A stretch of DNA of 64,000 bases from Chitinophaga pinensis. Its GTDB lineage: Bacteria > Bacteroidota > Bacteroidia > Chitinophagales > CAMDFR01. Below the pieces are notes generated by a model. The model saw nothing but the letters and a program-made list of their open reading frames with translations, was not told the DNA's origin and ran no database searches. This document shows positions 25,564-48,585 of the stretch, one piece after another. The translations under genes were made by a program, and so were the position numbers. The DNA lies in assembly GCA_945897725.1 (NCBI GenBank), contig CAMDFR010000005.1, positions 62,001-126,000 of the forward strand, in the 5' to 3' direction. Within the stretch, counting starts at the first letter, position 1. Each line of letters begins with the position of its first letter.

Positions 25564-28500
25564 TTATCGAATCATGACCATTTTTCCAAAGCCTTTCTTG
25601 AAAAACTTATCAGCTACGGTTTCCATATGCTCTATCTTTTCATCATTAATGGAGGTAACCACTCTGTAGAAATAGACTCCATTTCCTAGTGGATCACCGT
25701 AAGAATCACGACCATCCCATGCATATTCTGTAAGATTTCTTCCTATGGTAATGGGTCCTATCTCATCTTGCGAAATTTCTTTCACCACTTTTCCACTCTG
25801 ACTTAAGATTTGAATTTTAAAGAAGGTGGGTAAAGTATACCCTGTTAAAGTGAAAACAAATCTTGTTGATGTAGTGAAGGGATTTGGATAATTCAATACA
25901 TTGGTGATGCTTGATTTATTAATAACTTCAAAAGAAATTCTATAATCTTTCATATGCGATTTGTTACCACTTCTATCCTTATCTGTCACTATCAATTCAT
26001 AAGTTCCATCCGTTGTTAGAACTGGTTTTATTTCAACTCTAGCTTTATTTTCAACATTCAGTCTTGAATTGTCTGCAGGAATAAAAGTCGTTATAAAATT
26101 ATCATAATTCATCCGATGCAACATACCGTCTGGATATTTCAAATTAATTTCTAAAAGTGAGGTATCATCCAAAGCCAAGAACTTACTTTCGTCCTTCAAA
26201 GAAATTAATATTTCTGGACGAGCACTCACCAAATCCCCATTCAGAATATGCCGTCCATCAAAAGTAACGTCTAACAATGGATTTACTTTATCCTTGTCAA
26301 CATGAAACTTCATCAATGCATAATTATTAAAATGATATTGCTCCAATTGGTCATTTGCTGGATTAATTTCTACCACTAAAAAATTATCTCCAATAAGGTT
26401 AGAGCCAAAAGTATTTAACTCATACTTAAATGTCATGGTATCTAATCCATGCAAAGAATCTTGACGAGCTAATGATACATTTGCGTTTCTTGTGGCATCT
26501 TCAAGATCATATTTAATCAACAAACTATCCATATCAATATCTTCAATACTTTCTACACCACATCGAATGGTCAACATGTTTCCTTGTTGGAGGGTATCTC
26601 TATCGATAGAATAAAACAAAGAAGGATTAATGGCTGCTTCAGGTGCCTTTTTGTATAAGACTCTCCAATAATCTGGCTGTGTCGGCGTTCTGTTTGTAGT
26701 ATCTGATGTATGATATTTCAACTTTATATATGGATATGCTGTGGCACTGATGGTATTAATAAAAGTGTCCAAGGCAGTGGTGGTAAATAAACTTGTTTCA
26801 TACCCCGCAGCATCAACACCTATTAACTCCATACTTTCCTGATCGTAGTTAGGTACATCTAGACTAAAATGTCTCCAATGTACACTACCCCATTCAATTG
26901 CTGGACCGATGTCTGGAGAGCTAAAGGTCCCTGTATTCCAAAGTCCATTGATAACAATTTTCTGATTCACCACTGAACTCCAGTTTAAACCATGTTGTTC
27001 GACCGGAACATAAGATGAAACTCCTTTCTGTGTAAAAAACACCCACGGCGCATCCACTGCTCCACTCGTCAAATCTATGAGCGAAATAGCTCCTAAAGCA
27101 AAAAATTTACTTTTTAGAGTCACATCCCATGAAGTATAAAGCGGTTTACTCATAGAATACACACCAATATAAAAACCATCAGGAATAGAATCAATAAAAT
27201 TACTGATCACCTCCGACCAAGGTATACCCAAAGTAGGATGAATTCCTGTTGTTCTAAATGTAAATGCGTACTGATTCCAATTGTGATAAGAACAATGATA
27301 ACTGCCATAAGAGGCATTATAGTTGCTACCTGGATTGGGAATACTAGCCCACGGCAATCCCGTTGCGGGATCAATCACAAATATATTGAGGCCATAGCTT
27401 GCACCACAGCCAATCATTCTAGCAGCATGTTGCTGTGCACCATTAATCTTCCATTCAATTAAATGCCAATCCAAAGGTCCGCCATACCCCTCCCATAAAC
27501 CAGTATTTAATTCAATCTCTTTTAGATCTGGAACAAATTTTAGGGTACGAGTAGTGTCTACATAAAGATTAGAATAATCATCTTTCAGCCATTGGTGATA
27601 ATGAGATTGATTCCATCCCGGATATTCATTATTGATAAAAATAAAGGAGGAATAATGCCATGCATAAGAGGAAGTTGATGAAGTTGAATCCTGACTCACA
27701 CGCCAGTAATACACTGTGCTATCTGCAAAGGTAATGCTTGGATTAAAGTGGACTACTCCACCAGATTGAAACTTCCGTAATTGCATCTTTATTGGACTAT
27801 TGAATAATTCAGTAGTATCAATCTCGTATAAGTACCATCGAGAGCTTGCAAAAGGATTTACAGTACTTGCTTTGAAAGTAATATTCTGCTTTGGCACTAT
27901 AGCAAATTCATATGGATAAATCGGCAGAATATCCTCACTCTGAATATTCGTTGAAACACCATTTAAAATATAGTTATTGGTTTCAGATAGCTCATCAGTC
28001 ACCTCATCATCAGCATCCACATACAAACTGAATTGATTAATTCCCAAACCTGCTGTTCCCGAAATGAGCGTGGGTAATCTAAAAGTAATGGTATCCTTGA
28101 ATAAGGTTGCTGCTACCCTTTTTCTATAGAGCGTCTGCGAACCATCACCTAAAATTCTTGTAAGATCAATTGCATAAGTATCCACAATGGCCTTTCCTAA
28201 ATTTGTTACCACAATTTTAACTTCAAAAGTATCTACACTTGCTGTGATCACTGGTGGATTGAAGTACACTCGTGAGGGCGTAATCATATAGTCCGGCTGA
28301 CCATAGCAATTTAATTTGATGGCAGGATCTCCATGTAGGGTCAATTCATGCGCTATCATTTCATTAAAGATATAAGCGCTTGCTCTCATATCGCTGACGC
28401 AATGCTGAATAATTTTCCCAATACCTTTCCCATAATCTGTTTTCGACAAATGAGTATAAAAGGACGTTGCATAGACGTTTAAGGCGGAAGATAGAGATAA

Positions 28501-30600: not shown

Positions 30601-30621
30601 GAAAATGTTTTTTAAAATTAT

Positions 30622-31740
30622 CTATCTAGTGGGATTCGTCGCTTTCTTATCCTTCTTATTAAATCCTAAATGCAATGAAATCACATGCGAGTATAAGGCA
30701 TCCGATTTATCTCCGATATCTGTATATGCATAATCTACGCGAACAATACCTTTATACCCAAGACCAGCACCAATGTTGGGTTGAAAAGTGGTAATTTTTT
30801 TTCCGGTATCATCCGTGCTTTTTTGAATGTTGCCAATGCCTGTTCTTAGATAAATAATATCTACAAAACTTACTTCGAGTCCTGCATTCAAATCCATACT
30901 TACCTTATCAGATTTTACCAAAACATTACGCATGCCATCTGTCGTAAAATTTACATCCACCTCTGGTTGAATTTTAAATATTTTTTTAAACTGATACTCA
31001 TAAGAAAATCCCAACCAAAGTTGTGGAGTGGCAATTTCTAGTGTATTCAAGGGCAACTCATTACCAGTGTTAAGCAATACTTGTTTTTCTGCATCTGTAA
31101 ATTTAAATTTCCATGCAGTGAAGGTAGATGTCAAATCTCTTCCCATAAAACCAACCCTGAAACCTTTGATTCGATATTGTAAGCCAACATCTATACCGAA
31201 GCCAATAGCATTGGCAAATGTGCCAACTTTTCTAATCACTACTTTAGGACTCACACCGATCGCAAATTCCCCTTTCTTTATAGCATTTATTTTTTGCGCA
31301 TAATGTAAAAAAAGCCCATAATCACCAACAGAGAAGGAACGGATATTATTGTAATCAATACTTCCATCTGCGTTATATAAGTTTAATGTATTCGGTATAT
31401 CATCAACTCCAAATCGTATAAAAGTTAGGCCCAAGGTTCTAGATTTATCCATAATCGGAAAAGCTGCAGATACATAATCGTATTTTGCAATCCCCGCAAA
31501 GTATTCTGCATGCATCGCCGACAATTGAATATTATTATTCACAAAAGCGAGACCAGCCGGATTATAATAACCACTTGTTACGTCACTCACTGATGCAATC
31601 TGCGCATTCGACATGGCTAAACCTCTTGCACCAATGCCTATATTCAAATAATCATTAGAATATTTACGAACAGTTTGGGCACTTAAACAACCAACTGTCA
31701 ACAATAGTAGACTTAAAACAATTCTTTTCTTAATGGTCAT
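30622..31740 (-). CDS. porV2: PorV/PorQ-family outer membrane protein (PorV2)
   Basis: Outer-membrane beta-barrel of the FadL-like PorV/PorQ family, which shuttles T9SS cargo to the sortase. Signal peptide ends CLSAQ. Typical features: NIGIGARGLAMSNAQIASVS (family opening), GYYNPAGLA, alternating strands, and VRVDYAYTDIGD...HVISLHLGF, the characteristic C-terminal strands. Length is 373 from ATG 31740; a TTG at 31746 is in frame but unnecessary. It overlaps the end of the upstream AcpH-like gene by 11 bp and precedes porU2 by 21 bp, so the three form one transcript. Partnership with PorU2 is inferred from adjacency and from known PorU-PorV complexes. Confidence 0.85.
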   Translation of the reverse strand: MTIKKRIVLSLLLLTVGCLSAQTVRKYSNDYLNIGIGARGLAMSNAQIASVSDVTSGYYNPAGLAFVNNNIQLSAMHAEYFAGIAKYDYVSAAFPIMDKSRTLGLTFIRFGVDDIPNTLNLYNADGSIDYNNIRSFSVGDYGLFLHYAQKINAIKKGEFAIGVSPKVVIRKVGTFANAIGFGIDVGLQYRIKGFRVGFMGRDLTSTFTAWKFKFTDAEKQVLLNTGNELPLNTLEIATPQLWLGFSYEYQFKKIFKIQPEVDVNFTTDGMRNVLVKSDKVSMDLNAGLEVSFVDIIYLRTGIGNIQKSTDDTGKKITTFQPNIGAGLGYKGIVRVDYAYTDIGDKSDALYSHVISLHLGFNKKDKKATNPTR

Positions 31741-32401
31741 ATTCAACTAATTTTATGTGCATTTCATGCAATATATTTTCCCATTCCAAGGCAACAATTC
31801 CTACACAAGTATCAATCTGTTCAAGTATGACTTCTTTTTCATAATCGTTTGCAGAAAAATGAATCCTCTTAAAACATATATAACCTAACGCTTGAAACAG
31901 ATTTTCATTGCTGTTTAGCAAGAACGCAAACCTTCGCGTTTTAAAGTTATCAAATCTACTGATAAAATTATTATCTTGATAGTTTATTTTCTTTAGAAAA
32001 ATATTTAAGATTTCAATATCTATCTCATCGAGTTCACTATAAAATTGAGTAGCCTTTTCTGGATTGGACTCAACCAAAAATTTATCAATCAATAGCTCTA
32101 CCAAAACATGGGCAATAAAAAAACTTCTTGGAATTTTAAAACTTGAATTTGAAGTCAACACAAGAGTCAATTGCTTCGTTAACTCATGAAAAATTTCCAG
32201 GTTATGAAAAACACGATCTGTCTTTAAGTGAAATGCAACGCCTGCAATCATTTCCTCCTCCTGCACCGTATAAATACAATCAATACTTTTTTGCTTATTG
32301 AGCTTCGTAAAACCAGGAATTAAATCAGGCAATAAAACGCCTAAAGTATAGTATGGGCTATCATTTTGGTAGGCTAATTGATAATGGGATAAAAAATTCA
32401 T
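31730..32401 (-). CDS. ACP phosphodiesterase (AcpH)-like protein
   Basis: 223-residue alpha-helical cytosolic protein. The opening MNFLSHYQLAYQND and GVLLPDLIPGF, followed by GVAFHLKTDRVFHNLEIF and FIAHVLVELLIDKFL, resemble the HD-like AcpH family, which removes 4'-phosphopantetheine from acyl carrier protein. Metal ligands expected there (His6, Asp in LLPD, His/Asp in FHLKTD) are visible. Enzymes of this group are divergent, so the substrate is uncertain. The stop overlaps the start of porV2 (TATGACCATTAA junction), implying coupled translation. Structured element C lies 30 bp before the start. Confidence 0.6.
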   Translation of the reverse strand: MNFLSHYQLAYQNDSPYYTLGVLLPDLIPGFTKLNKQKSIDCIYTVQEEEMIAGVAFHLKTDRVFHNLEIFHELTKQLTLVLTSNSSFKIPRSFFIAHVLVELLIDKFLVESNPEKATQFYSELDEIDIEILNIFLKKINYQDNNFISRFDNFKTRRFAFLLNSNENLFQALGYICFKRIHFSANDYEKEVILEQIDTCVGIVALEWENILHEMHIKLVEYDH

Positions 32402-32529: not shown

Positions 32530-33813
32530 CTATGCTTCTACGCTAACCAAATAATAGTTTTTCTTACCTCTTTGAACGAGCATAAATCTATCGCAAAGCA
32601 GCATATCAGCAGTAATAGTATCTTCTGCTTTTACTTTCTCTTTATTTATGGAAATAGCATTCTCACTTAAGCTCCTTTTGGCTTCGCCTTTTGAAGTAAA
32701 AATACCTGTTTTTTCACTCAAAAAATCAATGATATGAATTCCATTTTGGATGTCTTTTAGGTCGCAAGAAAACCTAGGAACACCATCCAATTCAAGCCAA
32801 TCTGTGCTTGTCAGACTCAATACATCGGCCCTACTTGCATTTCCAAACAATAGGTTGGTTACTTGAATGGCTTTTGCTGTATCTTCTGGAGAATGTACCC
32901 TACTCGTAAATTCACTGGCTAACTCCTTTTGCAACATCCTAAGATGCGGAGCAGATTCATGTGCTGCTGTAAGCGATTCTATGTCTGATTGCGATTTTAA
33001 TGTAAAAATCTTGATGAACTTTTTTGCATCTTCATCACTCACATTCAGCCAAAATTGATAAAACTGATAAGGAGAAGTTTTCCTTCTGTCTAGCCAAACA
33101 TTGTTTCCTTCACTTTTGCCGAATTTAGTTCCATCGCTTTTAGTGATAAGTGGTGCAGTGAGTGCAAAGGCTTCTCCGCCAGACTTCCTTCTGATTAATT
33201 CCGTTCCTGTAACAATGTTTCCCCATTGATCGCTTCCACCCATCTGCAGTTTACAGTTCATGTTTTGATTTAACCAGTAAAAATCATATCCCTGCACCAA
33301 CTGATAGCTAAACTCTGTAAAGGACATGCCTGTTTCTAATCTATTCTTCACAGAATCTTTACTCATCATGTAACTCACTGTAATATGCTTGCCTACATCT
33401 CTTATAAACTCTAGAAAAGAAAAGTTTTTAAACCAATCATAATTGTTAACCACTTGAGCAGCATTGGCTCCACAATCAAAGTCTAAAAACTTCTCTAACT
33501 GTTTCTGAATACCTGCCAAATTAAGATTGATCTGCTCAATGGAAAGTAGGTTCCTTTCATCTGACTTTCCTGAGGGATCACCAATCATACCAGTAGCACC
33601 ACCAACTAATGCTAATGGTTTATGACCCGCCCTTTGCAAATGCATCAATAACATGATCGGTACCATATTGCCAATCGTCAAAGAATCAGATGTGGGGTCA
33701 AACCCCACATATCCCGTAATCATTTCTTTGGATAATAACTCTTCTGTTCCTGGCATGATATCTTGTAATAATCCTCGCCAACGCAACTCTTCTACTAAAT
33801 TCATCGTTTTCAT
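32530..33813 (-). CDS. tyrS: Tyrosyl-tRNA synthetase
   Basis: Class I synthetase charging tRNA-Tyr. 427 residues from ATG 33813 (alternative ATG 33804, [11 protein letters not shown]; an upstream TTG at 33834 is unlikely). Visible: [17 protein letters not shown] (HIGH region, here T-I-G-N), [28 protein letters not shown], the tyrosine-binding [18 protein letters not shown] (KMSKS loop), and a C-terminal S4-like RNA-binding domain ([14 protein letters not shown]). The HIGH variant lacks both histidines. The gene is divergent from the first adhesin with only 78 bp between starts. Confidence 0.95.
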
Positions 33814-33891
33814 TTGAGATGCAAATTTATGCAATCTTATTCAAAATATTATTTTAACAATTATATTGTTGGAAACGCAGTAATTTAGCAA

Positions 33892-36800
33892 GTGGATCGT
33901 CTAAACTATTTAAAGATTTTATTTTCCTTGGTAAAGTTGCTCAGAAAACTACTTTTTTTAATTGTACTTGTTTTACTTAGTTGTTTCGAGGCATCTGCAA
34001 CGCATATTGTTGGAGGTGTGATAAACTATGTATACCTAGGAGGGAGTACCTATAGAGTTACCATGAGAATTTATAGAGACTGCTCAAGTTCTACTGATTT
34101 TGATGGCATTGGTAGAAGTCCTGATGCACTTTTAGGTCTTTTTTACGAAAGTACCAATGTTCTTGCTCGTACCTATGACTTAGGTGCTCCTGTGGTCACG
34201 TCAGTAATTCCTACCATAACCAATCCTTGTATGTCTACAACTGGTGTATGTCTTGAAGAAGGAGTTTATACAACTGACATCACTGTTCCTAATAGTACTT
34301 CTGCATTCTATCTTAGTTATGTAAGATGTTGTAGAAATAGTTCCGTCACCAATATAGTGGGAGCAGGTACGGTTGGTGCCACCTTCACTGTGAGAATACC
34401 GCCCTATGGTGCAACACCAAATAGCAATCCAGTCTATAATGCTTTCCCTCCTGTTTATATTTGTCAAAATGCACCTTTAGTTTTTAATCATTCGGCTACT
34501 GACGCAAATGGTGATTCCTTATATTATGAACTGTGTAATCCCTTTTTAGGTGGTTCAACCCTTTCTCCATCACCTGGTCCAAGACCAGCACCCTACACAC
34601 CTTTGACATTTCTTGCACCATATACTGCGACAGACCCACTAGGTTCAAGCCCACCGCCAGCGGTGGCTTTAACTATAGATCCGGCTACAGGCGTTCTGAC
34701 GGGTACTCCTCCTACGCTTGGTCAGTTTACTGTCGGCATTTGTGTTCATGAATTTAGGGGAGGTATTGAACTCTCATCTACGATGCGTGATTTTCAATTC
34801 AATGTAGTAAATTGTCCTTTCCCTACAAGTAATATACCTAGTTCTGCGATCGATCCTTTGACAGGAGTAGGAACTTTCTCTACAAATTGTGATAACTATA
34901 CTGTACGATTTACAAATTCTAGTTCTGGAGCAACACGCTATCATTGGGATTTTGGCGTTGCTTCACTGACTACAGATACCTCTAACCTCACGAACCCTAC
35001 CTATGTTTATACCGATACTGGAACCTATTTAGTAACATTGGTGGCATACAATGCACTTGGCTGTTTTGATACTACTTATGCTTATGTGAAAGTCTATCCA
35101 GGTCTGATTCAAGACTTTAATTTCACAAATGAATGTGTGGATACAACGGTCCAATTTTATGATGCTTCATATACTCCCTTTGGAGTGATTAATTATTGGC
35201 GTTGGACCTTTGGAGATGGTGGCACTAGCCTACTGCAAAGTCCTAGTCATCTCTATGCTTCACCAGGTGCATATACTGTTAACCTTCAAGTAAAAACTGA
35301 TAAGGGTTGTGATAAAAATATTTCTAAAAGGATTGTGATAGACCCTAAACCAATTCCAAACTTCATAAATGATTCCTCCTGTATCAATTCACCAGTCGCC
35401 TTTACCAATACGACAACCATTAGTAGCGGATCTATAGCCTACTATGATTGGAATTTTGGAGATGGATCTCCTCATACTAGTACAAGAAATACAACACACA
35501 CATACGCGCTGACGGGTACCTACAATGTAACATTAATCGTTCGCTCGGATAGTGGATGTATGCAACAAATCACCAGAGCAGTAACTATTTTTCCACGTCC
35601 AATAATTACTACTAGTAGAGACACTACCATATGTCCCGGAACAAGTACTCAAATAGCTGCCAGTGGAGGTCTGAATTATTACTGGACGCCAGCAACAAGG
35701 CTTAGCAATACCAGAATTGCAAACCCAATTGCAAATCCTTTAGTGAATACGACCTATAGAATTACCATCTCTGATGCGAACAGGTGTCAGAGTTTTGATT
35801 CTGTAACAGTGAATTTATTCATCAACAACACTAACTTCAACTTTACGAATGAGTGCAAAGATACGCTTGTGCAATTCAACGATCTGTCTACCAGCACTGG
35901 TGGGATAATAAATCAATGGAGATGGAGCTTTGGGGATGCAACAACGGCTAGCATTCAAAATCCTTCTCATCTTTATTCAAGTGTTGGATTGTTTTCGGTT
36001 AAACTTGTTATAACAACAGATATCGGATGTAAGGATAGTACTACTAAAACGGTCAGAATTTATCCAATTCCTCGACCTGGTTTTATTAACGATAGTACCT
36101 GTATCAATAGTGCTGTTTATTTTAGAGATACAACCAGATATTACTTGATTGGAGATACAATTAATAGTCGTGTATGGAGTTGGGGTGATGGTTCACCAAA
36201 CACGATTGGACCATCCACTACAAGTCACGCATACACCACTAGCGGTACTTTTCCTGTCACGCTAACCGTGAGAACTGATAGTGGATGTACTCAATTTATC
36301 ACTAGAAATATTGTGATTCATCCGAGACCTCTCATCACAACAAGCAATGATACTTTTATTTGTCCGGGCAGTAGTACACAAATTGCTGCGGCTGGTGGTG
36401 TTAATTATGTCTGGTCTCCTCCCACACGTTTAAGCAATACAAGAATTGCCAATCCGATAGCCAATCCTACTTCAAACATCACATACTATGTAACGGTAGC
36501 CGATACAAATCGTTGCCAAAGTTTTGATTCTGTCAAGGTAAATCTATACATCAACACACCTAATTTTTCCTTTACAAATGAGTGCAAAGACACTGCAGTA
36601 GCGTTTTTTGATTTATCTACAACTACAGGAGGTACTATCAATCAGTGGAATTGGACGTTTGGAGATGCGGCCACTTCGGCAATCCAAAATCCTAGTCATC
36701 TTTATGGGGCTGCAGGACTATTTAATGTGAAGTTGATATTCACAAGCGATCGAGGATGTAAAGACAGCACTACCAAAACTGTGAGAATTTATCCAATCCC

Positions 36801-39663
36801 AAATCCAGGCTTTATCTATGATAGTACCTGTTTAAATAGTTCAGTTTATTTTCTTGACACTTCTCATTACTATTATTCTGGGGACTCCATTCAAAGTAGA
36901 ACTTGGTCATGGGGTGATGGATCAAGTCCAACATATACAATGAGTAACACCAATCATACTTATACTGCATCAGGTGCTTATAATGTAGTTTTAACGGTAA
37001 GAAGCGATAGTGGATGTACACAAAGTACAATGCGTTCTGTTTTCGTAAACCCTTTACCAACAATTGTTTTAACCCCTGATACGATAATTTGTCCTAACAC
37101 GACTATACAACTCTTAGCTGTTGGTGGAACTAATTTTTATTGGAAAGCGAACCTCAGTTTAAACGATACTACAATTAACAACCCTATCGCTAGTCCACCT
37201 TCGAAAACCACCTATTATGTTAGAGTAAAGGATGTAAATAGATGTCAGAATAGCGATTCAGTAACCATTGATTTATATAGATTATCTCCAGTAAGTGCTG
37301 GTATAGATACGTCGGTATGTTTAAACCCTAGCAGTTTTAGAGACAGCGTGCACTTGAATGCTAGTGGTGGGGTTTCTTACCTATGGGTGCCTTCATACAA
37401 CATCTCTAATGTTAATATTGCTAATCCATGGGCATCGCCAGATACCGCCACCAATTATACGGCAAAGATTGGCGATATAAATGGATGTTTTCAATATGAT
37501 ACAGTCTTGGTCTCTGTCCTTGATCCTACCTTAGATTTACTTACGGCAAAAGACACCTTTTTATGTAAAAATGATACGATTCAAATACGTGTCATTGAAC
37601 AAGGAGTATCAGAATATACGTGGTCACCGGCTGCACATATTAGTAGCACTTCCATAAGAAGCCCATATTTCTATCCTACCGATACTGCCACCTATTTTTT
37701 AACTGTGATAAACTACTGCTATACCAAAAGAGACACCATGAAATTTAACGTGTACCCTTTGCCAATTGTACGTTTCACAACTGATACCACCTGTATTAAT
37801 TCTGCCGTAAATTTCACTAATTTATCTATAGGTAATATTCGCAGTTGGAGTTGGAATTTTGGTGATGATTCTGTTTCAAATCTACAAAACCCAATTCACA
37901 CCTATTCAAGTGCTTTAAATTATTCTGTTCGATTAATAGATACTACTACCTTGGGTTGCTACGATTCTTTAACAAGAACGATCACCATTCATCCTCGACC
38001 GCTCATTAGCATAACACCTGATACCAATCTTTGTCCTGGTGAGTACACTTCGCTTTTAGCCTCAGGCGGTAGTAGATATTTTTGGAGTCCTGCCTCACAA
38101 TTAAGCAACGATAGTATTCCTAACCCTACAACAACAATTCTTAGTAATGGAAATTACAACTTAACTGTAGCAGATTTAAATAGTTGTCAAAACTATGATT
38201 CTGTAAAAGTCAGTTACTATTTTTTAAATCCTGACTTTTATTTTCAGGATGAATGTATCGATACCGCTGTTCAATTTGCGGATAGCACACAGACTGATGC
38301 AGGTGTTGTAAATGTTTGGAGATGGATTTTTGATGATGGTATCACTTCGAACATAGAGAATCCGGCACATAGATATACAATTCCTAAGAGCTACAATGTT
38401 ATGTTGTATGTTAGGACCTCTGAAGGTTGCGACACTTCTATAACCAAAGTAGTAACTATCTTCCCTCTACCTTCACTAAATATTCCAAGATACGACTCGA
38501 TTTGTGTGGGGGAAAGTTATCAGATAAATGCAGACTCACTTTTGAAGTATGTTTGGGACCCAAATCCAACATTGACACCCTGGAATACTTTCAATCCTAT
38601 TGCAAATCCTATCACAACTACCAATTATTTTGTAACACTTACAGATTCTCACTTTTGTGTAAATAGAGATTCATTTAGACTGAAGGTGAATTTATTGCCA
38701 AATGTAAATATAAGTGCACCACCAATAGTACTTTGCAGAGGAAACAGCTATCAGCTGAATGCGACGACTACAGCAGGAAGTTACCTATGGCACCAAGGTA
38801 CTGCGCTTGATGATAGTACAATTCTTAATCCAATATTATCACTTACAGACTCAGTTACATATTGGTTTCAAGTCACGGACTATCATGGTTGCACAAACTA
38901 CGATACAGTAACCTTAAATGTCCAGCAACCTGTTCTTGCAGAAGCTTTTCAAGACAGCACTATTTGCAGAGGTAACCAAGTACAATTGGTAGCGGATGGT
39001 GGAAAGTATTTTTCTTGGACTCCTAATTTGTATCTAACGAACGCATCAATAAAAAGTCCTGTAAGCACTCCTGATTCAAGCATAACATATATTATTCAGG
39101 TTTCTAATGATTGCTTTTCTGACGATACAAGTATAACTATCATCGTAAATCAACTACCAATAGCAAATGCTGGACCGGATAATACTATTTATCGAAACCA
39201 AAGCACCACTTTAAGTGGAAGTGGTGGATTGAGCTATTCTTGGACACCAGACAATTATTTAAATAGACCTTTCGAGGCAATGACGGTTGCATCGCCAATG
39301 TATACAACACGATATGTGCTGCAAGTCACCGATATTAATGGATGCATTTCTTATGACTCTGTTTGGATATATGTTGACGGGCAAACAATTCTTCTACTGC
39401 CTACCGCTTTTTCACCTGATGGAAATGGCGTAAATGATATTTTTAGAATCACTAAATGGTTAAATATTCTATCACTAGAAACTTTTGAAATTTATAATAG
39501 ATGGGGGGAAATGGTTTTTTCTACTTCTGACATTAATGCCGGTTGGGACGGTACTTTTAATGGACGGGAACAACCACTTTCAGTGTATTCATGGATCGTG
39601 AAAGCGAGAGACTATGAAGGGAATGATGTTGTCAAAACAGGCAATGTTACCTTGCTAAGATAA
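33892..39663 (+). CDS. Giant PKD-repeat T9SS type B surface adhesin, paralogue 1
   Basis: 1,923-residue secreted SprB-like surface protein. A signal peptide (ending CFEASA) is followed by the Bacteroidota N-terminal domain THIVGGVINY...MRIYRDCSSS (to about 300), then about nine PKD domains recognisable by W-x-FGDG motifs, alternating with GGxxYxWxP / NRCQxxDSV Ig-like modules. Two exact 243-residue units lie in the middle. The C-terminus (LLPTAFSPDGNGVND ... FEIYNRWGEMVF ... GWDG) is a type B gliding-motility-associated sorting domain. Start: GTG 33892 opens the frame, but TTG 33928 (giving VKLLRKLLFL) aligns with the paralogue's start. A near-identical gene follows 80 bp later. Predicted role: adhesion or gliding. 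Confidence 0.88.
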   Translation: MDRLNYLKILFSLVKLLRKLLFLIVLVLLSCFEASATHIVGGVINYVYLGGSTYRVTMRIYRDCSSSTDFDGIGRSPDALLGLFYESTNVLARTYDLGAPVVTSVIPTITNPCMSTTGVCLEEGVYTTDITVPNSTSAFYLSYVRCCRNSSVTNIVGAGTVGATFTVRIPPYGATPNSNPVYNAFPPVYICQNAPLVFNHSATDANGDSLYYELCNPFLGGSTLSPSPGPRPAPYTPLTFLAPYTATDPLGSSPPPAVALTIDPATGVLTGTPPTLGQFTVGICVHEFRGGIELSSTMRDFQFNVVNCPFPTSNIPSSAIDPLTGVGTFSTNCDNYTVRFTNSSSGATRYHWDFGVASLTTDTSNLTNPTYVYTDTGTYLVTLVAYNALGCFDTTYAYVKVYPGLIQDFNFTNECVDTTVQFYDASYTPFGVINYWRWTFGDGGTSLLQSPSHLYASPGAYTVNLQVKTDKGCDKNISKRIVIDPKPIPNFINDSSCINSPVAFTNTTTISSGSIAYYDWNFGDGSPHTSTRNTTHTYALTGTYNVTLIVRSDSGCMQQITRAVTIFPRPIITTSRDTTICPGTSTQIAASGGLNYYWTPATRLSNTRIANPIANPLVNTTYRITISDANRCQSFDSVTVNLFINNTNFNFTNECKDTLVQFNDLSTSTGGIINQWRWSFGDATTASIQNPSHLYSSVGLFSVKLVITTDIGCKDSTTKTVRIYPIPRPGFINDSTCINSAVYFRDTTRYYLIGDTINSRVWSWGDGSPNTIGPSTTSHAYTTSGTFPVTLTVRTDSGCTQFITRNIVIHPRPLITTSNDTFICPGSSTQIAAAGGVNYVWSPPTRLSNTRIANPIANPTSNITYYVTVADTNRCQSFDSVKVNLYINTPNFSFTNECKDTAVAFFDLSTTTGGTINQWNWTFGDAATSAIQNPSHLYGAAGLFNVKLIFTSDRGCKDSTTKTVRIYPIPNPGFIYDSTCLNSSVYFLDTSHYYYSGDSIQSRTWSWGDGSSPTYTMSNTNHTYTASGAYNVVLTVRSDSGCTQSTMRSVFVNPLPTIVLTPDTIICPNTTIQLLAVGGTNFYWKANLSLNDTTINNPIASPPSKTTYYVRVKDVNRCQNSDSVTIDLYRLSPVSAGIDTSVCLNPSSFRDSVHLNASGGVSYLWVPSYNISNVNIANPWASPDTATNYTAKIGDINGCFQYDTVLVSVLDPTLDLLTAKDTFLCKNDTIQIRVIEQGVSEYTWSPAAHISSTSIRSPYFYPTDTATYFLTVINYCYTKRDTMKFNVYPLPIVRFTTDTTCINSAVNFTNLSIGNIRSWSWNFGDDSVSNLQNPIHTYSSALNYSVRLIDTTTLGCYDSLTRTITIHPRPLISITPDTNLCPGEYTSLLASGGSRYFWSPASQLSNDSIPNPTTTILSNGNYNLTVADLNSCQNYDSVKVSYYFLNPDFYFQDECIDTAVQFADSTQTDAGVVNVWRWIFDDGITSNIENPAHRYTIPKSYNVMLYVRTSEGCDTSITKVVTIFPLPSLNIPRYDSICVGESYQINADSLLKYVWDPNPTLTPWNTFNPIANPITTTNYFVTLTDSHFCVNRDSFRLKVNLLPNVNISAPPIVLCRGNSYQLNATTTAGSYLWHQGTALDDSTILNPILSLTDSVTYWFQVTDYHGCTNYDTVTLNVQQPVLAEAFQDSTICRGNQVQLVADGGKYFSWTPNLYLTNASIKSPVSTPDSSITYIIQVSNDCFSDDTSITIIVNQLPIANAGPDNTIYRNQSTTLSGSGGLSYSWTPDNYLNRPFEAMTVASPMYTTRYVLQVTDINGCISYDSVWIYVDGQTILLLPTAFSPDGNGVNDIFRITKWLNILSLETFEIYNRWGEMVFSTSDINAGWDGTFNGREQPLSVYSWIVKARDYEGNDVVKTGNVTLLR
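35836..36564 (+). repeat. 243-residue repeat unit, adhesin 1 copy 1
   Basis: 729-nt unit beginning at the FNFTNEC codon series: one PKD (NQWRWSFGDA), one PKD (SRVWSWGDGSPN) and one Ig-like module (TTSNDTFICPG...NRCQSFDSV). The next unit starts exactly in register. Confidence 0.9.
36565..37293 (+). repeat. 243-residue repeat unit, adhesin 1 copy 2
   Basis: Begins FSFTNECKDTAVAFFDLS; same module order as copy 1 and the same 729-nt length, ending just before SAGIDTSVC. Confidence 0.9.
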
Positions 39664-39743
39664 CTTGTAAGCCATAAGCGCATTGATATTAAAATGCATT
39701 GGATGTTAGTTGTTACGAATTTATTATCTTTGGGTATCTAGAA

Positions 39744-42700
39744 ATGAAAAAGTTTAGAAAATTATTTTTAACGTTCCTCTTCCTTTGTGTGGTCTCATCC
39801 GCTTCGTTCGCAAGTCATATTGTGGGTGGAGTAATTAACTATCAACGAATCAGCGGAAGAACCTATCTAGTAACATTAAAAATTTATCGAGATTGTTCAA
39901 GTTCAACAGGATTCGACGTAAATCCAAGCATTGGTATCTTTGATGAGCTTACAAATGTCCGCGTATCCATTTTCTATGTCGCTTCACCACGAATAACAAG
40001 AGTAGATCCAGTCATCACCAATCCTTGCCTTGCTGCTTCAGCCGTTTGTATTGAAGAAGGAATTTATGTAGATACCATTACTTTGCCCACAGGTAATCGT
40101 TCCTATTACTTAAGCTATTCAAGATGTTGTAGAAATAGTTCTGTAACCAACCTTACAACACCAGGAAGTGTAGGAATGTCACTTTCAGTGAGAATACCAG
40201 CCGCAGATTCTATACCGAATAGTAATCCCATTTATAATACCTTTCCACCGGTCTATATATGTCAGAATACACCAGTGGTGATTAACTACTCTGCGTCAGA
40301 TGCTGATGGAGATTCCTTATATTATCAGCTTTGTAATCCCTATGCAGGAGGGAGTATAGGCTCACCAATGCCTCTACCAGGTCCATTACCATTTACACCA
40401 CTCACATACGTTGTACCATATTCATCTCTAGATCCTTTAGGTTCGAGTCCAGCGCCGGCCATTGGCATGTCTATAGAACCTAGCACTGGGGTGCTCACCG
40501 GTACTCCACCAACTGTCGGTCAATTTGTAATGCCAGTTTGTGTGAGTGAGTTTCGTTCAGGTGTTTTCTTGTCAACAACCATGAGAGACTTTCAAATTAA
40601 CGTTATTCCATGTCCTGTTCCTTTTGCTTTCATTCCAAGTTATAATATTGACCCATCCACAAGAATTGGGACATTCGCCCTCAATTGTACAGGCAATACC
40701 ATTAATTTTTTGAATGGCAGTACTGGAAGCACCTATTATCATTGGGACTTTGGTGTTAATTCTATCGATTCTGACACCTCTAATGTGATCACCCCTACTT
40801 TTACATTCCCGGATACTGGAAGATATTTGGTCACTTTGGTAGCTTATAATTCGGCTGGTTGTCTGGACTCCACGGCGGCTTATGTTAACATTTACCCAGG
40901 ACTTATTGCTGATTTTTTATCTTCTACGTATTGCATAGATTCCTCGGTTAGATTCTTGGATCAGTCTATCTCACCTCCTGGACCTCTAACTTCTTGGAAA
41001 TGGTATTTTGGGGATGGCGATAGCAGTGTGCTCAAAAATCCGACACATCACTATGCAAGTACAGGTAGCTATAATGTACGTTTGAATATTATAAACAATA
41101 TTGGATGCGATACTTCCATATCAAAGTCAATCACAATCTTTGCGCAACCAAATCCAAATTTCACGGTAGATTCAACCTGCTTGAATGCTCCTGTGCGCTT
41201 TAGCAATACTAGTACCATTAGCTCAGGAACCATTAGCAGTTACGATTGGAATTTCGGTGATGGATCCTCCCGTTCTTCTTCTACAAGTCCTGTGCACACC
41301 TACTCTTCAGTTGGTTCATTTACGGTAACCTTAACCACAGTTTCTGACAGTGGATGTGTTAAATCAAGATCTAAAACGATTGTGATCCATGCTTTACCGG
41401 TTGTTACAACTAGCCCAGATACCATTTTCTGTACGGGTAGCTTAGGAGCCCAACTTTCTGCCTCCGGTGGAGTTTCCTATCTGTGGACACCATCCTCGAG
41501 TCTGAGTAGTGCTTTTGTTTCAAACCCATTAGCCACACCACTTATTAATACGGTGTATATTGTGAGCGTTGGTGACACTAATAGATGTCGAAATACCGAT
41601 TCAGTAATAGTTAATATCGCCACCTTAACTCCAAACTTTTTATTCACAAACGAGTGTTTAGATACCGCAGTAGCGTTCATAGATACTTCTACCTCCTTTG
41701 GTTCATTTATCACTCAATGGAAATGGAGTTTTGGTGACCTCACAAATTCCATCTTATCCAATCCTTCTCATGCATACTCTTCAGTTGGTTTATACAATGT
41801 GAAGTTAGTATTAACAAGTAATAAAGGTTGCAAAGACAGCATAACAAAGGAAGTACGAATTTATCCAATTCCTCATCCAGGTTTTACATTTGATAGTACT
41901 TGTATCAATAGTCCCATAATATTTACAGACACCACTCGTTATTTTCTAACAGGCGACACCATCATGAGTCGCATTTGGGCATGGGGTGATGGTACACCAA
42001 ATACAGTTGGGCCAATGAATCCAACCCATACCTATAGAACTGCGGGAATATATAATGTTAGCTTAACCGTTAGAACGGATAGTGGATGCACCCAATATAG
42101 TACCAGAAATGTTATTGTACATCCACGACCAAATATAAGCACAAGTAGGGATACCTCTATTTGCCCTGGTAGTGTAACTCAAATTGCTGCAAGTGGCGGC
42201 GTGAGTTATTTATGGTCCCCATCAACCAACCTAAGTAGCACAAGCATTGCGAATCCAATTTCGAATACATTATCGAATATCACTTATCAAGTCAGAGTGG
42301 CTGATACCAATAGATGTCAAAATTTTGATTCTGTTGCCATAAATATTTTTGTAAACACACCAAACTTCAATTTCAACAATGAATGTTTAGATACTGCAGT
42401 ACAGTTTAACGATTTGTCAACCACAACAGGAGGTTCTGTGAGTCAGTGGTATTGGACATTTGGAGATGCTGACACTTCCATAGTTCAAAATCCACTGCAC
42501 CTTTATCCGACCTCTGGATTTTATAACGCAAAATTGGTCATCACAACAGACAAAGGATGCATGGATAGCATCACAAAAACAGTAAGTATTTATCCTATTG
42601 TCAACCCTGGCTTTACCTTTGATAGTTCCTGTGTTGGAAAGTTGGTTTCTTTTTTAGATACCACTCACTACTTTTATAGTTCAGATTCTATTGTGAGTAG

Positions 42701-45700
42701 AACTTGGGATTGGGGTGACGGAACCCCCAATACCATTGCTAATCCATCCCCAAATCATCTCTACGCGACAGCTGGTTCTTATCTTGTCTCGCTGATCGTT
42801 AGAAATGACAGTGGATGTACGCAGTCCTTTACTAGGAATGTATTGATTCATCCATCACCCACCATTTTGACTAGTAGTGATACTTTCATTTGTCCGGGTA
42901 GTAATACACAAATAAGTGCATCAGGTGGAGTAGCTTATTTTTGGTCACCTTCTACAAGTTTGAGTGATTCAAGTATATCAAATCCTACATCCAACACCTT
43001 GTCAAACATAACATACCGAGTACTTGTAGCTGACTCTAATAGATGTCAAGCAACAGATTCTATAAGTGTTGAGTTGTATCGCAACAATCCTGACTTTACA
43101 TTTACGAATGAATGTTTGGATACTTCTGTTCAGTTTTTTGATTTGTCGAACAGTACAGGAGGATTGATAAATAAATGGAACTGGAATTTTGGTGATGGGA
43201 CAATCGATAGCATACAAAATCCTTCTCATTTATATGCTTCAGCAGGTACCTACAACACAAAAATAATTTTCACTACAATTGAAGGCTGTATGGATAGCAT
43301 CGACAAAGTCGTAAGAATATATCCTATTTCAAATCCTGGTTTTATCTATGATAGTGCTTGTATTAATGAACCTGTTTTTTTTAGCGATACTTCCAATTAT
43401 TTCTATGGAGGGGATAGTATTCAAAGTAGAGTTTGGTCACTAGGTGATGGCTCACCAAATATCACGGGATCGGCTTCATTTAATCATACCTACGCATCCG
43501 CAGGCAATTATTCAGTGGTTTTGACAGTTAGAAATGATAGTGGTTGTACTCAAAAGATAACCCGCTCTGTTTATGTAAATCCCTTACCACTCATAAATTT
43601 GACGGGTGATACAACTATCTGTCCAAATCAATCATTACAATTATTTGCTTTTGGTGGTGTAAGTTTTTCTTGGCGAGTAAATAGTACTTTAAGTGATACC
43701 GCTATTAATAATCCTATTGCCTCACCGATAGGTAATAGTTTGTATTATGTTACAGTAATTGATACTAACCGCTGTAAAAACAATGACTCAGTAAGTGTCC
43801 ATATTTATACTTTAAATCCAGTGAGTGCTGGTTTAGATACTTCGGTGTGTTTGAGTCCAACAAGTTTCTTTGATAGTGTGCAACTAAACGCAAGTGGTGG
43901 CAGCAGATATCTTTGGACGCCTAATTATAATATTTCGAATGATAGCATCTCTGATCCTTGGGTATCACCTGATATTAATACCGATTATTCGGCAAGGATA
44001 ACAGACATTAATGGATGCATTCAATACGATAGTGTTAGGGTGGTGGTGTTGGATCCAGCACTTGATTTATTGACAGCTAAAGACACTTTCCTATGCAAAA
44101 ACGATACGATTAAAGTGAGAGTGATTGATCAAGGTGTTGAAGGATATACTTGGAGTCCAATTTTAGGATTAAGTAACCCATCGATAAGATCACCTTATTT
44201 TTTCCCAACAGATACCTCTACCTATTTCTTAAATGTTTTGAACTATTGCTACACAAAAAATGACACGATGAAATTCAATGTATATCCATTACCTATTGTC
44301 AACTTCACACTGGATACTACCTGTATTAATTCACCTGTCGATTTTACCGACCTATCATCTTCTAATGTGCGTAGTTGGAATTGGAGTTTTGGTGATGGCT
44401 ATAATGACTCGATTCAAAACCCAACACACACCTATACTTCTTCAGGTAGTGTGCTTGTGCGCTTGATAGACACCACCAATCTTGGTTGCTACGATTCTTT
44501 GAGCAGATCCATCACTATTCATCCTATACCAATTACAAATCCGCTGAGAGATACAATATTATGTCAGAATAAATATGCCAACTTTCAGTCATCTGGAGGG
44601 ATCACTTACTTTTGGAGTCCTGCTGCAGATTTGGATAATCCATCAAGTTCTAACCCAACCACTACTGTACTCACCAATGGAATATATACTGTTACAGTTG
44701 CTGATATAAATAAATGCCAAGCGTTTGACACGGTACTTACAACCTATAATTTCTTATTCCCAAGACTTTATACCGAAAATAAATGCCTAGATAGCTTGGT
44801 AAGCTTCATAGATAGTTCTACAACAAATACTGGAATAATTAATGTTTGGAATTGGAATTTTGGGGATGGTAACACTTCAACAATTCAAAATCCTTTTCAT
44901 TTGTATGGTAGTCCTGGAGTCTTTAATGTTACCATGTATATCGAAAATTCAAGTGGTTGCGATACATCAATCTCAACAAATATTGAAATTTATTCCTTAC
45001 CAAAATTACCCTATGACAATGACACCATTTGCCTAGGAGACCGGTATCAAATAATATCAGATTCAAACTATAGACATCTATGGACCTATAATCCAACACT
45101 ATCAACACTCACAACTTATAATCCAATTGCAAATACTTCTACAAGCACCAATTATTATGTCACACTTACCGATACACATTTTTGTATCAATGAAGATACC
45201 TTTAATCTACAAGTAAACTTAAAGCCTAGCATCCGTATAAGCTTGACTGATCCTTATTTTTGTACGGGTGATTCAATCACGCTATATGCAATAAGTACAG
45301 CAAGTAAAATTGTATGGAATAATGGTAGTAGCTTAAGCGATAGTACTATTTTTAATCCAATTGCATATCTTAACGATACCATTACCTATAAGGTTAGAGT
45401 GGAGGATGGTGCTGGATGTTTTAATATCGATAGTACTACATTGATTGTAGAACAAAAAGTCATCGCTATTGCCTTCATGGATACAATGATCTGTAGAGGA
45501 TCAGAGTTACATTTATCTGCTGATGGTGGAAAATACTATGATTGGACACCAACAACATATCTGCAAGCATCTACTTTACAGATGGTTAGAAGTAGACCAG
45601 ACTCCTCTATTATCTATACGGTTAATGTCTCGAACGATTGTTTTAGTGACGATACTTTCATATCTATTTTTGTCAATCAATTACCGCTAGCCTATGCAGG

Positions 45701-46190
45701 ACCTGATGTTTCAATTTATCGAAATGAAACGGCAAACCTACTTGCAAGTGGAGGAATTAGTTACAGTTGGTTTCCGGATAATTCTTTAAGCACTCCTTTT
45801 AGTCAGTCTACAATTGCCTCACCATTTTACAATACTAACTATATTGTTTGGGTGACAGACTCGAATGGTTGTACAGCCTTTGATACCGTATTGGTAGAAG
45901 TTATTGCCAATACTGTGTTACTAATGCCAACGGCTTTTTCACCTGACGGCAATGGTATAAACGATGTTTTCAGAATCAGTAAAACATTAAATATGGAACA
46001 GCTTATTTCTTTTGAGATCTATAATCGTTGGGGAGTTAAAGTATTCGAAACAAGCGATATCAATCAAGGATGGGACGGCAACTTCAAAGGTCGTGAACAG
46101 CCAATGTCTTCATTTACCTGGATTATTAAAGCCAAGGATTATGATGGTTTGGATATATTAAGATCAGGCATTGTTACGTTGTTGCGTTAG
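39744..46190 (+). CDS. Giant PKD-repeat T9SS type B surface adhesin, paralogue 2
   Basis: 2,148-residue paralogue of the preceding gene, co-linear with it. Signal peptide MKKFRKLFLTFLFL ... SFASH, N-terminal SHIVGGVINYQRI / LKIYRDCSSS domain, about eleven PKD domains (YHWDFGVN, TSWKWYFGDG, SSYDWNFGDG and so on), Ig-like modules with paired cysteines, and a type B sorting domain (LLMPTAFSPDGNGIND ... FEIYNRWGVKVF). It carries three 243-residue units where paralogue 1 has two, which explains its greater length. ATG 39744 was chosen over an upstream in-frame TTG (39699). No PorP/SprF-family gene, the usual partner of type B cargo, follows; purL converges downstream. Confidence 0.9.
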   Translation: MKKFRKLFLTFLFLCVVSSASFASHIVGGVINYQRISGRTYLVTLKIYRDCSSSTGFDVNPSIGIFDELTNVRVSIFYVASPRITRVDPVITNPCLAASAVCIEEGIYVDTITLPTGNRSYYLSYSRCCRNSSVTNLTTPGSVGMSLSVRIPAADSIPNSNPIYNTFPPVYICQNTPVVINYSASDADGDSLYYQLCNPYAGGSIGSPMPLPGPLPFTPLTYVVPYSSLDPLGSSPAPAIGMSIEPSTGVLTGTPPTVGQFVMPVCVSEFRSGVFLSTTMRDFQINVIPCPVPFAFIPSYNIDPSTRIGTFALNCTGNTINFLNGSTGSTYYHWDFGVNSIDSDTSNVITPTFTFPDTGRYLVTLVAYNSAGCLDSTAAYVNIYPGLIADFLSSTYCIDSSVRFLDQSISPPGPLTSWKWYFGDGDSSVLKNPTHHYASTGSYNVRLNIINNIGCDTSISKSITIFAQPNPNFTVDSTCLNAPVRFSNTSTISSGTISSYDWNFGDGSSRSSSTSPVHTYSSVGSFTVTLTTVSDSGCVKSRSKTIVIHALPVVTTSPDTIFCTGSLGAQLSASGGVSYLWTPSSSLSSAFVSNPLATPLINTVYIVSVGDTNRCRNTDSVIVNIATLTPNFLFTNECLDTAVAFIDTSTSFGSFITQWKWSFGDLTNSILSNPSHAYSSVGLYNVKLVLTSNKGCKDSITKEVRIYPIPHPGFTFDSTCINSPIIFTDTTRYFLTGDTIMSRIWAWGDGTPNTVGPMNPTHTYRTAGIYNVSLTVRTDSGCTQYSTRNVIVHPRPNISTSRDTSICPGSVTQIAASGGVSYLWSPSTNLSSTSIANPISNTLSNITYQVRVADTNRCQNFDSVAINIFVNTPNFNFNNECLDTAVQFNDLSTTTGGSVSQWYWTFGDADTSIVQNPLHLYPTSGFYNAKLVITTDKGCMDSITKTVSIYPIVNPGFTFDSSCVGKLVSFLDTTHYFYSSDSIVSRTWDWGDGTPNTIANPSPNHLYATAGSYLVSLIVRNDSGCTQSFTRNVLIHPSPTILTSSDTFICPGSNTQISASGGVAYFWSPSTSLSDSSISNPTSNTLSNITYRVLVADSNRCQATDSISVELYRNNPDFTFTNECLDTSVQFFDLSNSTGGLINKWNWNFGDGTIDSIQNPSHLYASAGTYNTKIIFTTIEGCMDSIDKVVRIYPISNPGFIYDSACINEPVFFSDTSNYFYGGDSIQSRVWSLGDGSPNITGSASFNHTYASAGNYSVVLTVRNDSGCTQKITRSVYVNPLPLINLTGDTTICPNQSLQLFAFGGVSFSWRVNSTLSDTAINNPIASPIGNSLYYVTVIDTNRCKNNDSVSVHIYTLNPVSAGLDTSVCLSPTSFFDSVQLNASGGSRYLWTPNYNISNDSISDPWVSPDINTDYSARITDINGCIQYDSVRVVVLDPALDLLTAKDTFLCKNDTIKVRVIDQGVEGYTWSPILGLSNPSIRSPYFFPTDTSTYFLNVLNYCYTKNDTMKFNVYPLPIVNFTLDTTCINSPVDFTDLSSSNVRSWNWSFGDGYNDSIQNPTHTYTSSGSVLVRLIDTTNLGCYDSLSRSITIHPIPITNPLRDTILCQNKYANFQSSGGITYFWSPAADLDNPSSSNPTTTVLTNGIYTVTVADINKCQAFDTVLTTYNFLFPRLYTENKCLDSLVSFIDSSTTNTGIINVWNWNFGDGNTSTIQNPFHLYGSPGVFNVTMYIENSSGCDTSISTNIEIYSLPKLPYDNDTICLGDRYQIISDSNYRHLWTYNPTLSTLTTYNPIANTSTSTNYYVTLTDTHFCINEDTFNLQVNLKPSIRISLTDPYFCTGDSITLYAISTASKIVWNNGSSLSDSTIFNPIAYLNDTITYKVRVEDGAGCFNIDSTTLIVEQKVIAIAFMDTMICRGSELHLSADGGKYYDWTPTTYLQASTLQMVRSRPDSSIIYTVNVSNDCFSDDTFISIFVNQLPLAYAGPDVSIYRNETANLLASGGISYSWFPDNSLSTPFSQSTIASPFYNTNYIVWVTDSNGCTAFDTVLVEVIANTVLLMPTAFSPDGNGINDVFRISKTLNMEQLISFEIYNRWGVKVFETSDINQGWDGNFKGREQPMSSFTWIIKAKDYDGLDILRSGIVTLLR
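41637..42365 (+). repeat. 243-residue repeat unit, adhesin 2 copy 1
   Basis: Begins FLFTNECLDTAVAFIDTS; 729 nt; two PKD domains plus one Ig-like module. Confidence 0.9.
42366..43094 (+). repeat. 243-residue repeat unit, adhesin 2 copy 2
   Basis: Begins FNFNNECLDTAVQFNDLS; exactly 729 nt and in register with copy 1. Confidence 0.9.
43095..43823 (+). repeat. 243-residue repeat unit, adhesin 2 copy 3
   Basis: Begins FTFTNECLDTSVQFFDLS; 729 nt, ending before SAGLDTSVC at the same site as the last unit of adhesin 1. Confidence 0.9.
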
Positions 46191-46350: not shown

Positions 46351-48585
46351 CTATCTATTAATTTCATTTCCAATTGCTTCATCATACAATTTTTTCCAAT
46401 CAGAAAGATGACCCCAATCCATGGATTTAAGTTGTATTTTTTCCTTTAAAACCTTTCCGATAAATACATTTTTCTGATTCGAATTCTTTAACAATGTTTC
46501 AAAAGCCTCCTGATTTTTTGGATCAATACTAAGCACCACTCTGCTTTGACTTTCACCAAACAAAAAGGCATCCTCGCGAACATCTGCATCATAACATATT
46601 TCAAAGCCTTTGTTACCAGCCATTGCACTTTCCAACAGTGTAATAAATAGACCTCCCTCACTAACGTCGTGCATGCTTTTCGCTAGCTTTGCATCATTAA
46701 TTAAATGAAGCGTTTGTTGCAGTTGGAATTCTTCATTCAAATCGAAATATGGACAGGAAGAATCTTCCCTCTTCATTATTTGAACTAAATATTGTGATGA
46801 ATGAATATCTTCCCTTGAAACTCCTAGCAGATAAATATAATCTCCCTCATTTTTAAAATGAAGCGTCATTTTTGATTCAATATTCTTGAGTAAACCTAGC
46901 ATCCCAATGGTTGGCGTTGGAAACACTGCACCACCATCATTTGACTGATTATAAAAGCTAACATTGCCACCGGTTACAGGCGTTTCGAACATAGTACAAG
47001 CCTCTCCCATGCCTTTAATTGCATGTACAAATTGCCAGTATACCTCAGGATTATTGGGATTTCCAAAATTCAGGCAATTTGTTACACCACTGGGCGTACC
47101 TCCACTACATGCAATATTTCTAGCAGCTTCAGCCACCGCTATCATCGTCCCTTTATAAGGATCAGCGTAAATATATCTGGAGTTACAATCAACCGTCAAG
47201 GCCAAGCATGTTTCTGTTCCTTGTATCCTAACAATTGCAGCATCACTTTTTTCATTAACATTGGTATTTGCGATCCCTACCATTGAGTCATATTGCTCAT
47301 ACACCCACTTTTTTGATGCAATATTGGGTAATTGCACCAACTGTTTTGCAATACTTAGCAAATCGCTTGGAATCGACACAGAATTTATATCAAATGACTT
47401 TAGAGATTGAAAATATGCTGGCTCTGAATATGGCTTATCATATACAGGCGCACCGCCGCCTAAGACCAAAGATTCTGCTGGCACCGAAGCCACTAAAACA
47501 TCATTCATATAATAATTCAAAATACCTGAATCAGTGACCTCACCAATTATAGCGCAATGCAGATCCCATTTATCGAAGACAGCCTCTACCAATTTTTCTT
47601 TGCCTTTTTCAACAACAATAAGCATTCTCTCTTGACTTTCAGATAAAAGAATTTCCCATGGTTTCATATTCTTTTGACGGGTAGGAACCTTATCCAACCA
47701 TATATTCATTCCATGTTCACCCTTAGCACTCATTTCTGAGGTTGAGCAAGTGATGCCGGCAGCTCCCATATCTTGCATTCCAATAACAGCACCCGTTTTT
47801 ATTACTTCAAGTGATGCCTCTAATAATAATTTTTCTTGAAAAGGGTCACCCACCTGAACCGCAGGTAAATCATTAATCGATTCTTTAGATATGTCTTTGG
47901 AGGCAAATGCAGCACCGGCAATACCATCCTTACCAGTTGATGAGCCAACAATATATACTGGGTTTCCAACACCATAGGAGGTTGCAGAAACTGTTTCATT
48001 TTTCTTTACAATTCCAACAGACATGGCATTGACCAAAGGATTGGTTTGATAGCATGCATCGAAATAAACTTCACCAGCAACAGTTGGTACACCAAAGGCA
48101 TTCCCATAGTCTCCAATACCTTTCACAACACCTTTTAATAAATGCTTTGTTTTATCATCCGTAAGCAATCCAAATCGTAAGGAGTTTAATTGTGCAATCG
48201 GCCTAGCACCCATTGTAAAAATATCTCGATTGATACCACCAACTCCAGTAGCCGCTCCCTGATAGGGTTCCAGCGCAGATGGATGATTATGGCTTTCAAT
48301 TTTGAAGGCACATCCTAATCCATTACCAATGTCGACTAATCCTGCATTTTCTTCACCTGCTTCTACCAATAAATGCTTACCACTTCTTGGCAATGTTTTT
48401 AGATACTTGATTGAATTTTTATAAGAACAATGCTCACTCCACATGACGGAATAAATAGATAGTTCATTAAAATTTGGTATTCTTCCAAGTACTTCAATAA
48501 TTTTCTCGTATTCCGAAGAAAGCAAACCAAGTTCTATGGCGGTTTCTACAGTAGTAGTTTCATGTATGGCACTTAAATTTGTCAT
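46351..48585 (-). CDS. purL: Phosphoribosylformylglycinamidine synthase subunit PurL
   Basis: Cytosolic purine-synthesis enzyme that converts FGAR to FGAM with ATP and glutamine-derived ammonia. At 744 residues it is the small PurL, which needs PurQ and PurS partners (not in the window). Motifs: NFNELSIYSVMWSEHCSYKN, the ATP/FGAR-binding ESHNHPSALEPYQGAATGVGG, GDPFQEKLLLEASLE, QDMGAAGITCSTSEM, GVTNCLNFGNP and PVTGGNVSFYNQS. It starts 2 bp after the flippase stop and is probably cotranscribed. The 160-bp spacer after the converging adhesin holds no clear terminator. Confidence 0.96.
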   Translation of the reverse strand: MTNLSAIHETTTVETAIELGLLSSEYEKIIEVLGRIPNFNELSIYSVMWSEHCSYKNSIKYLKTLPRSGKHLLVEAGEENAGLVDIGNGLGCAFKIESHNHPSALEPYQGAATGVGGINRDIFTMGARPIAQLNSLRFGLLTDDKTKHLLKGVVKGIGDYGNAFGVPTVAGEVYFDACYQTNPLVNAMSVGIVKKNETVSATSYGVGNPVYIVGSSTGKDGIAGAAFASKDISKESINDLPAVQVGDPFQEKLLLEASLEVIKTGAVIGMQDMGAAGITCSTSEMSAKGEHGMNIWLDKVPTRQKNMKPWEILLSESQERMLIVVEKGKEKLVEAVFDKWDLHCAIIGEVTDSGILNYYMNDVLVASVPAESLVLGGGAPVYDKPYSEPAYFQSLKSFDINSVSIPSDLLSIAKQLVQLPNIASKKWVYEQYDSMVGIANTNVNEKSDAAIVRIQGTETCLALTVDCNSRYIYADPYKGTMIAVAEAARNIACSGGTPSGVTNCLNFGNPNNPEVYWQFVHAIKGMGEACTMFETPVTGGNVSFYNQSNDGGAVFPTPTIGMLGLLKNIESKMTLHFKNEGDYIYLLGVSREDIHSSQYLVQIMKREDSSCPYFDLNEEFQLQQTLHLINDAKLAKSMHDVSEGGLFITLLESAMAGNKGFEICYDADVREDAFLFGESQSRVVLSIDPKNQEAFETLLKNSNQKNVFIGKVLKEKIQLKSMDWGHLSDWKKLYDEAIGNEINR

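Follow-up and report, generated by a model that had tools for sequence, protein, structure and literature searches.

The window analysed here is a stretch of 64,000 nucleotides (contig C5:62001-126000) from the draft genome, 2.59 Mb in 50 contigs, of a freshwater Bacteroidota bacterium. It holds two co-linear genes on the + strand, gene A (33892-39663, 1923 aa) and gene B (39744-46190, with its ATG at 39744, 2148 aa), separated by a gap of 80 bp; the ORF calls agree with the coordinates given for them in a preliminary description of this DNA. The pair is bounded on the - strand by tyrS (32530-33834, PF00579), the upstream synteny anchor, and by purL (46351-48585), the downstream anchor of the lineage that carries both genes. 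Shortly before tyrS and the gene pair, positions 25564-31746 encode a PorU-like C25-family peptidase (1678 aa) and a PorV2 homologue, and PorV2 also lies near tyrS in a related genome, G001. On the contig that carries genes A and B, but beyond the window, a 2499-aa frame (G000:C5:23106-29600) contains many PKD domains. Promoter-like matches did not exceed their frequency in shuffled sequence, and terminator-like matches (14, against a mean of 6.2 in shuffles) were located within coding sequence. A literature search found no description of this gene pair.

Domain spacing gives both products one architecture: an N-terminal domain, a PKD domain, n modules of the order PKD-PKD-Ig, the series Ig-Ig-PKD-Ig-PKD-Ig-Ig-Ig-Ig, and a C-terminal domain that is the type B signal of the type IX secretion system (T9SS), with n equal to three in A and four in B. 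Hydrophobic N-termini are visible in both translations. The type B sorting domain (CHU_C/TIGR04131) was identified by profile matches at 39397-39660 in A and 45924-46187 in B, both + strand, with TIGR04131 scores of 45.9 and 43.8 bits (cut-off 35) and CHU_C scores of 54.0 and 54.4 (cut-off 27), respectively. These matches support the export of A and B as predicted T9SS type B cargo. Large surface adhesins, SprB among them, work through the T9SS type B pathway (TIGR04131/CHU_C cargo of Bacteroidota), and T9SS type B PKD/Ig-repeat proteins resemble A and B in having the C-terminal sorting domain behind long PKD/Ig arrays. A and B have the stalk-domain array that characterises fibrillar adhesins, with nine (A) and 11 (B) PKD_4 domains plus Ig-like domains. 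Pfam gives only PKD, CHU_C and PKD-overlapping ChitinaseA_N in the two proteins, and no recognised adhesive domain, in which they differ from that class of cargo. Thus, the name adhesin used in the preliminary description is a hypothesis about their function, put forward from sequence.

The N-terminal domain of gene A, referred to as the HIVGG domain (33979-34851, + strand), is conserved in the order. Its 29-member alignment contains an invariant Cys, and its model has a pLDDT of 89 and a pTM of 0.87. A fold search of the PDB with this domain gave zero matches at E<=1e-3, and a He_PIG match was found below threshold only. Tandem gene pairs occur at 15 of 70 loci of the HIVGG-type family (L029, L079, L084, L085, L091, L096, L102, L103, L105, L107, L109, L112, L115, L119 and L122); duplication in tandem seems to have happened repeatedly in the family, and a functional pairing of the tandem genes is possible. 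In addition, two members of the family (L094:1759-7101 and L098:8950-14277) have a 243-aa superperiod made of three Ig-like domains of ~81 aa.

The modules of both genes lie on the + strand and are contiguous. In gene A, module 1 occupies 35116-35835 (720 nt), module 2 occupies 35836-36564 (729 nt) and module 3 occupies 36565-37293 (729 nt). In gene B, module 1 occupies 40914-41636 (723 nt), followed by module 2 at 41637-42365, module 3 at 42366-43094 and module 4 at 43095-43823, each of 729 nt. Protein autocorrelation was strongest at an offset of 243 in both genes. The preliminary description had placed unit starts at 35836 and 36565 in A and at 41637, 42366 and 43095 in B, with steps of exactly 729 nt and a last unit ending just before SAG(I/L)DTSVC in each translation, all of which was borne out. 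Its counts of two and three units need to be raised to three and four, since it overlooked an older module, 720 or 723 nt long, just upstream of each array, which has the same PKD-PKD-Ig order and is placed by the module tree. It had also described the flanks as equal in length to within a few codons; this holds for the C-terminal flanks (789 and 788, one codon apart) but not for the N-terminal flanks (648 and 631, 17 codons apart).

The 729-nt unit is exact in length and not in sequence. The five units named in the preliminary description (modules 2-3 of A and 2-4 of B) share 58-65% identity at the DNA level and 53-68% at the protein level. The longest exact match is 17 bp between modules of any one gene and 16 bp in the window, and fourfold-degenerate sites agree about as often as chance predicts (~0.30), not just between units but between orthologues as well, indicating synonymous saturation. 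Tandem Repeats Finder reported no array, which is uninformative given its period limit of 500 nt and the divergence of the units. Unit identities no higher than those between unrelated PKD modules had been named in advance as grounds for doubting a common origin. This is not what was observed: in gene A, domains at equivalent positions across modules are 47-76% identical, compared with 31-38% for the two types of PKD within a module. Downstream of the array in gene A, a PKD-Ig-PKD block (37765-38484, + strand) may represent an older copy, in permuted order, of the three-domain period of the array, to judge from a weak signal in autocorrelation (offset ~557 aa), domain order and identities. It has no counterpart in the ~1200-aa paralogues.

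The comparison covered four genomes of the genus, one per species, namely that of the window and G001, G002 and G003; all are draft assemblies, those of the relatives being MAGs. G001 carries both genes in the order tyrS-A-B-purL, as in the window, with tyrS on one side and purL adjoining the end of its gene B on a second contig. Its gene B is split over the two contigs. G001 A has three modules, like A of the window, and G001 B has three, one fewer than B of the window. G002 and G003 instead have a single gene with two modules, which encodes 1681 aa in G002 and is divided between two contigs in G003, in the order tyrS, one ORF of ~295 aa, the single gene and pckA. The ~1200-aa paralogues located elsewhere have one module.

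In the module tree, first modules form one group, including module 1 of A, and last modules form another, which includes module 3 of A (support for this clade, 97/97) and module 4 of B. Interior modules are confined to genes A and B, in the window as in G001, and those of A and B fall in one group. Because they form one group and are restricted to the two-gene lineage, the third module is most likely older than the duplication that gave A and B. The C-terminal flank tree has A and B as sisters with G002 and G003 outside (99/99), while the N-terminal flank tree gives the branching order of A, B and G002/G003 without resolution. Possibly the gene duplication is older and was followed by loss in G002 and G003. 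On the preferred order, with the third module older than the gene pair, the preliminary description was right to propose both whole-gene duplication and gain or loss of units, which are indicated by synteny and by the module counts across relatives, but in an order that differs from this one.

The interior modules are hybrids. In sliding comparisons of identity their left side is closest to the last module and their right side to the first module, with the switch point within the second PKD and the right part consisting of the Ig domain. A changepoint test with column permutation was significant for module 2 of A (p=5e-5), module 2 of G001 A (p=5e-5), modules 2 and 3 of B (p=2e-4 and p=1.5e-4) and module 2 of G001 B (p=0.012), and for none of ten first and last modules. 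Partial trees place the left part with last modules (100/99) and the Ig part with first modules (98/96), although the AU test alone did not reject a grouping of interior with last modules for the Ig part (p=0.07). If a two-module array undergoes unequal in-register crossover, the resulting hybrids are expected to be last-like on the left and first-like on the right, which places the breakpoint in the second PKD. In module 2 of A, the inferred crossover interval is 36085-36309 (+ strand, alignment columns 86-160), with breakpoints after columns 86, 118 and 159 under three scorings. We infer from these patterns that the hybrid interior modules are the mark of in-register unequal crossover. With a breakpoint inside the second PKD, the piece that was duplicated would be a circular permutation of the unit, and not the PKD-PKD-Ig triple itself as had been proposed.

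Module 2 of G001 B shares derived states with module 2 of B by 5:1 on its left and with module 3 of B by 7:1 on its right (Fisher p=0.026, for a split chosen post hoc and few sites; changepoint p=0.12), which suggests that G001 B lost one module through the same crossover process. Gene conversion between A and B was considered as the dominant process and rejected, because each gene pairs with its G001 counterpart (A with A, B with B) in the two flanks as well as in the first and last modules. In module 2 of G001 B, the second PKD contains a local stretch that resembles A (identity up to 0.90), but it was not significant (p=0.46). With units at synonymous saturation and no exact match over 17 bp, the comparison of identities within and between the genes that had been recommended for detecting gene conversion revealed no recent exchange or conversion. 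Dating of the crossover from fourfold sites failed, as orthologues too are saturated.

Other explanations of the hybrid pattern and of the module counts were considered. Selection by neighbouring domains, in the absence of recombination, could give interior modules a hybrid look, because the first PKD of an interior module follows an Ig and its Ig precedes a PKD. Inside the array itself this context is confounded with descent. The single-module paralogues separate them: context predicts that these should resemble first modules on the left and last modules on the right, but their scores are near neutral (PKDa 0.03/-0.05/0.14, Ig -0.01/-0.05/-0.01), and only their last four residues track context (break after column 243 in p0 and p3). 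Context therefore accounts for the linker and not for the domains, and we regard it as an unlikely source of the hybrids. The genome of the window has 71 PKD_4 matches, which might have supplied domain blocks for independent insertion into the array. However, the modules of the genus form one clade relative to those of another family of the order (100/100), and the interior modules group with the first and last modules of their own array, in trees built from PKD-PKD-Ig modules; such an origin is highly improbable. The three-module arrays of that other family may represent separate expansions or have been homogenised.

The remaining explanations concern copy number. Repeat collapse or expansion can distort counts in draft assemblies, and every genome here is a draft, with G001 B on two contigs. 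Collapse is implausible given that modules of a gene share no exact stretch longer than 17 bp, which is less than the word length assemblers commonly use, and the contig break in G001 falls beyond the third module; an artefact can be almost entirely discounted. An active length switch of the Periscope type, in which the array gains or loses units between close strains by recombination, would agree with the variation in whole-unit number between orthologues (four in B here, three in G001 B). Periscope Proteins (SasG, Rib, Sgo_0707) are likewise proteins whose length is set by the number of folded stalk units, with whole units gained or lost, but the published class has highly identical repeats whose number varies between close strains; adjacent SHIRT domains are 82-100% identical, and high DNA identity has been proposed to drive recombination (PMC8201768, PMC9704523). 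The tandem folded repeats of A and B lack such DNA identity (58-65%, longest exact match 17 bp, fourfold sites at chance), they are saturated, and their counts differ between species. A switch of this kind is very unlikely at this locus. Since the copies are saturated, they form a slow species-level ladder left by ancient in-register recombination, not a live, phase-variable length switch. The mechanism of length variation originally suggested thus stands on an evolutionary scale, and not as strain-level switching.

A single module is modelled by AlphaFold2 as all beta (pLDDT 90.6), and its best PDB fold match is the neck of GhpA, grappling hook protein A of Aureispira sp. CCB-QB1 (E 6.5e-11, TMq 0.68). 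At the sequence level, parts of the stalk and of the C-terminal region of A and B also match GhpA weakly (total E 1.1e-31). In contrast to A and B, GhpA has 5898 aa. The matches are scattered and confined to PKD/Ig stalk and C-terminal stretches; no full-length homology extends beyond stalk and sorting domains, and the N-terminal domain of A and B has no match to GhpA. This likeness supports a stalk role for A and B and not membership among the grappling hook proteins. Duplication of several domains together, in the middle of an array, has been described in repeat proteins (Bjorklund et al. 2006, PMC1553488), and the modules of A and B are a case of this kind. What differs here is that the crossover position can be narrowed to the second PKD and its timing set against that of the gene duplication.

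Taken together, A and B are probably tandem T9SS-exported multi-domain stalk proteins whose length grew by whole three-domain steps through in-register crossover. An ancestor with one PKD-PKD-Ig module would have given rise to a two-module gene, a state retained in G002 and G003. Unequal in-register crossover between first and last modules would then have inserted a third, hybrid module, with its left part from the last module, its right part from the first and the switch in the second PKD. Tandem duplication of the whole gene would have followed, giving A and B, and a second crossover would have added the fourth module of B, while G001 B probably lost one module again. The step of 729 nt would have stayed constant despite synonymous saturation because crossover at homologous positions preserves reading frame and domain register. 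In a working model of the product, the type B sorting domain would hold a rod that carries the conserved N-terminal domain outward from the outer membrane, and every step would lengthen this rod by three beta-sandwich domains.

This is a real, well documented and ordinary example of stalk-protein growth. The locus provides a clean natural record of such growth in bacteria, a ladder of one, two, three and four modules over paralogues and species, in which the hybrid modules mark the crossover and give the order of events relative to the gene duplication. It also calls for caution, because exactly spaced repeats do not count as evidence that a length switch is active, and the DNA identity of units needs to be checked. 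Superunits of the PKD-PKD-Ig type expanded in A and B and, perhaps separately, in another family of the order (G007, G028 and G052), and in L094 and L098 three Ig domains of 81 residues make up a period of 243 residues. A three-domain superunit of ~240 residues as the preferred growth step of the HIVGG/T9SS stalk family is a tentative and somewhat doubtful generalisation; if true, it would indicate that stalk growth is constrained by structure or by secretion.
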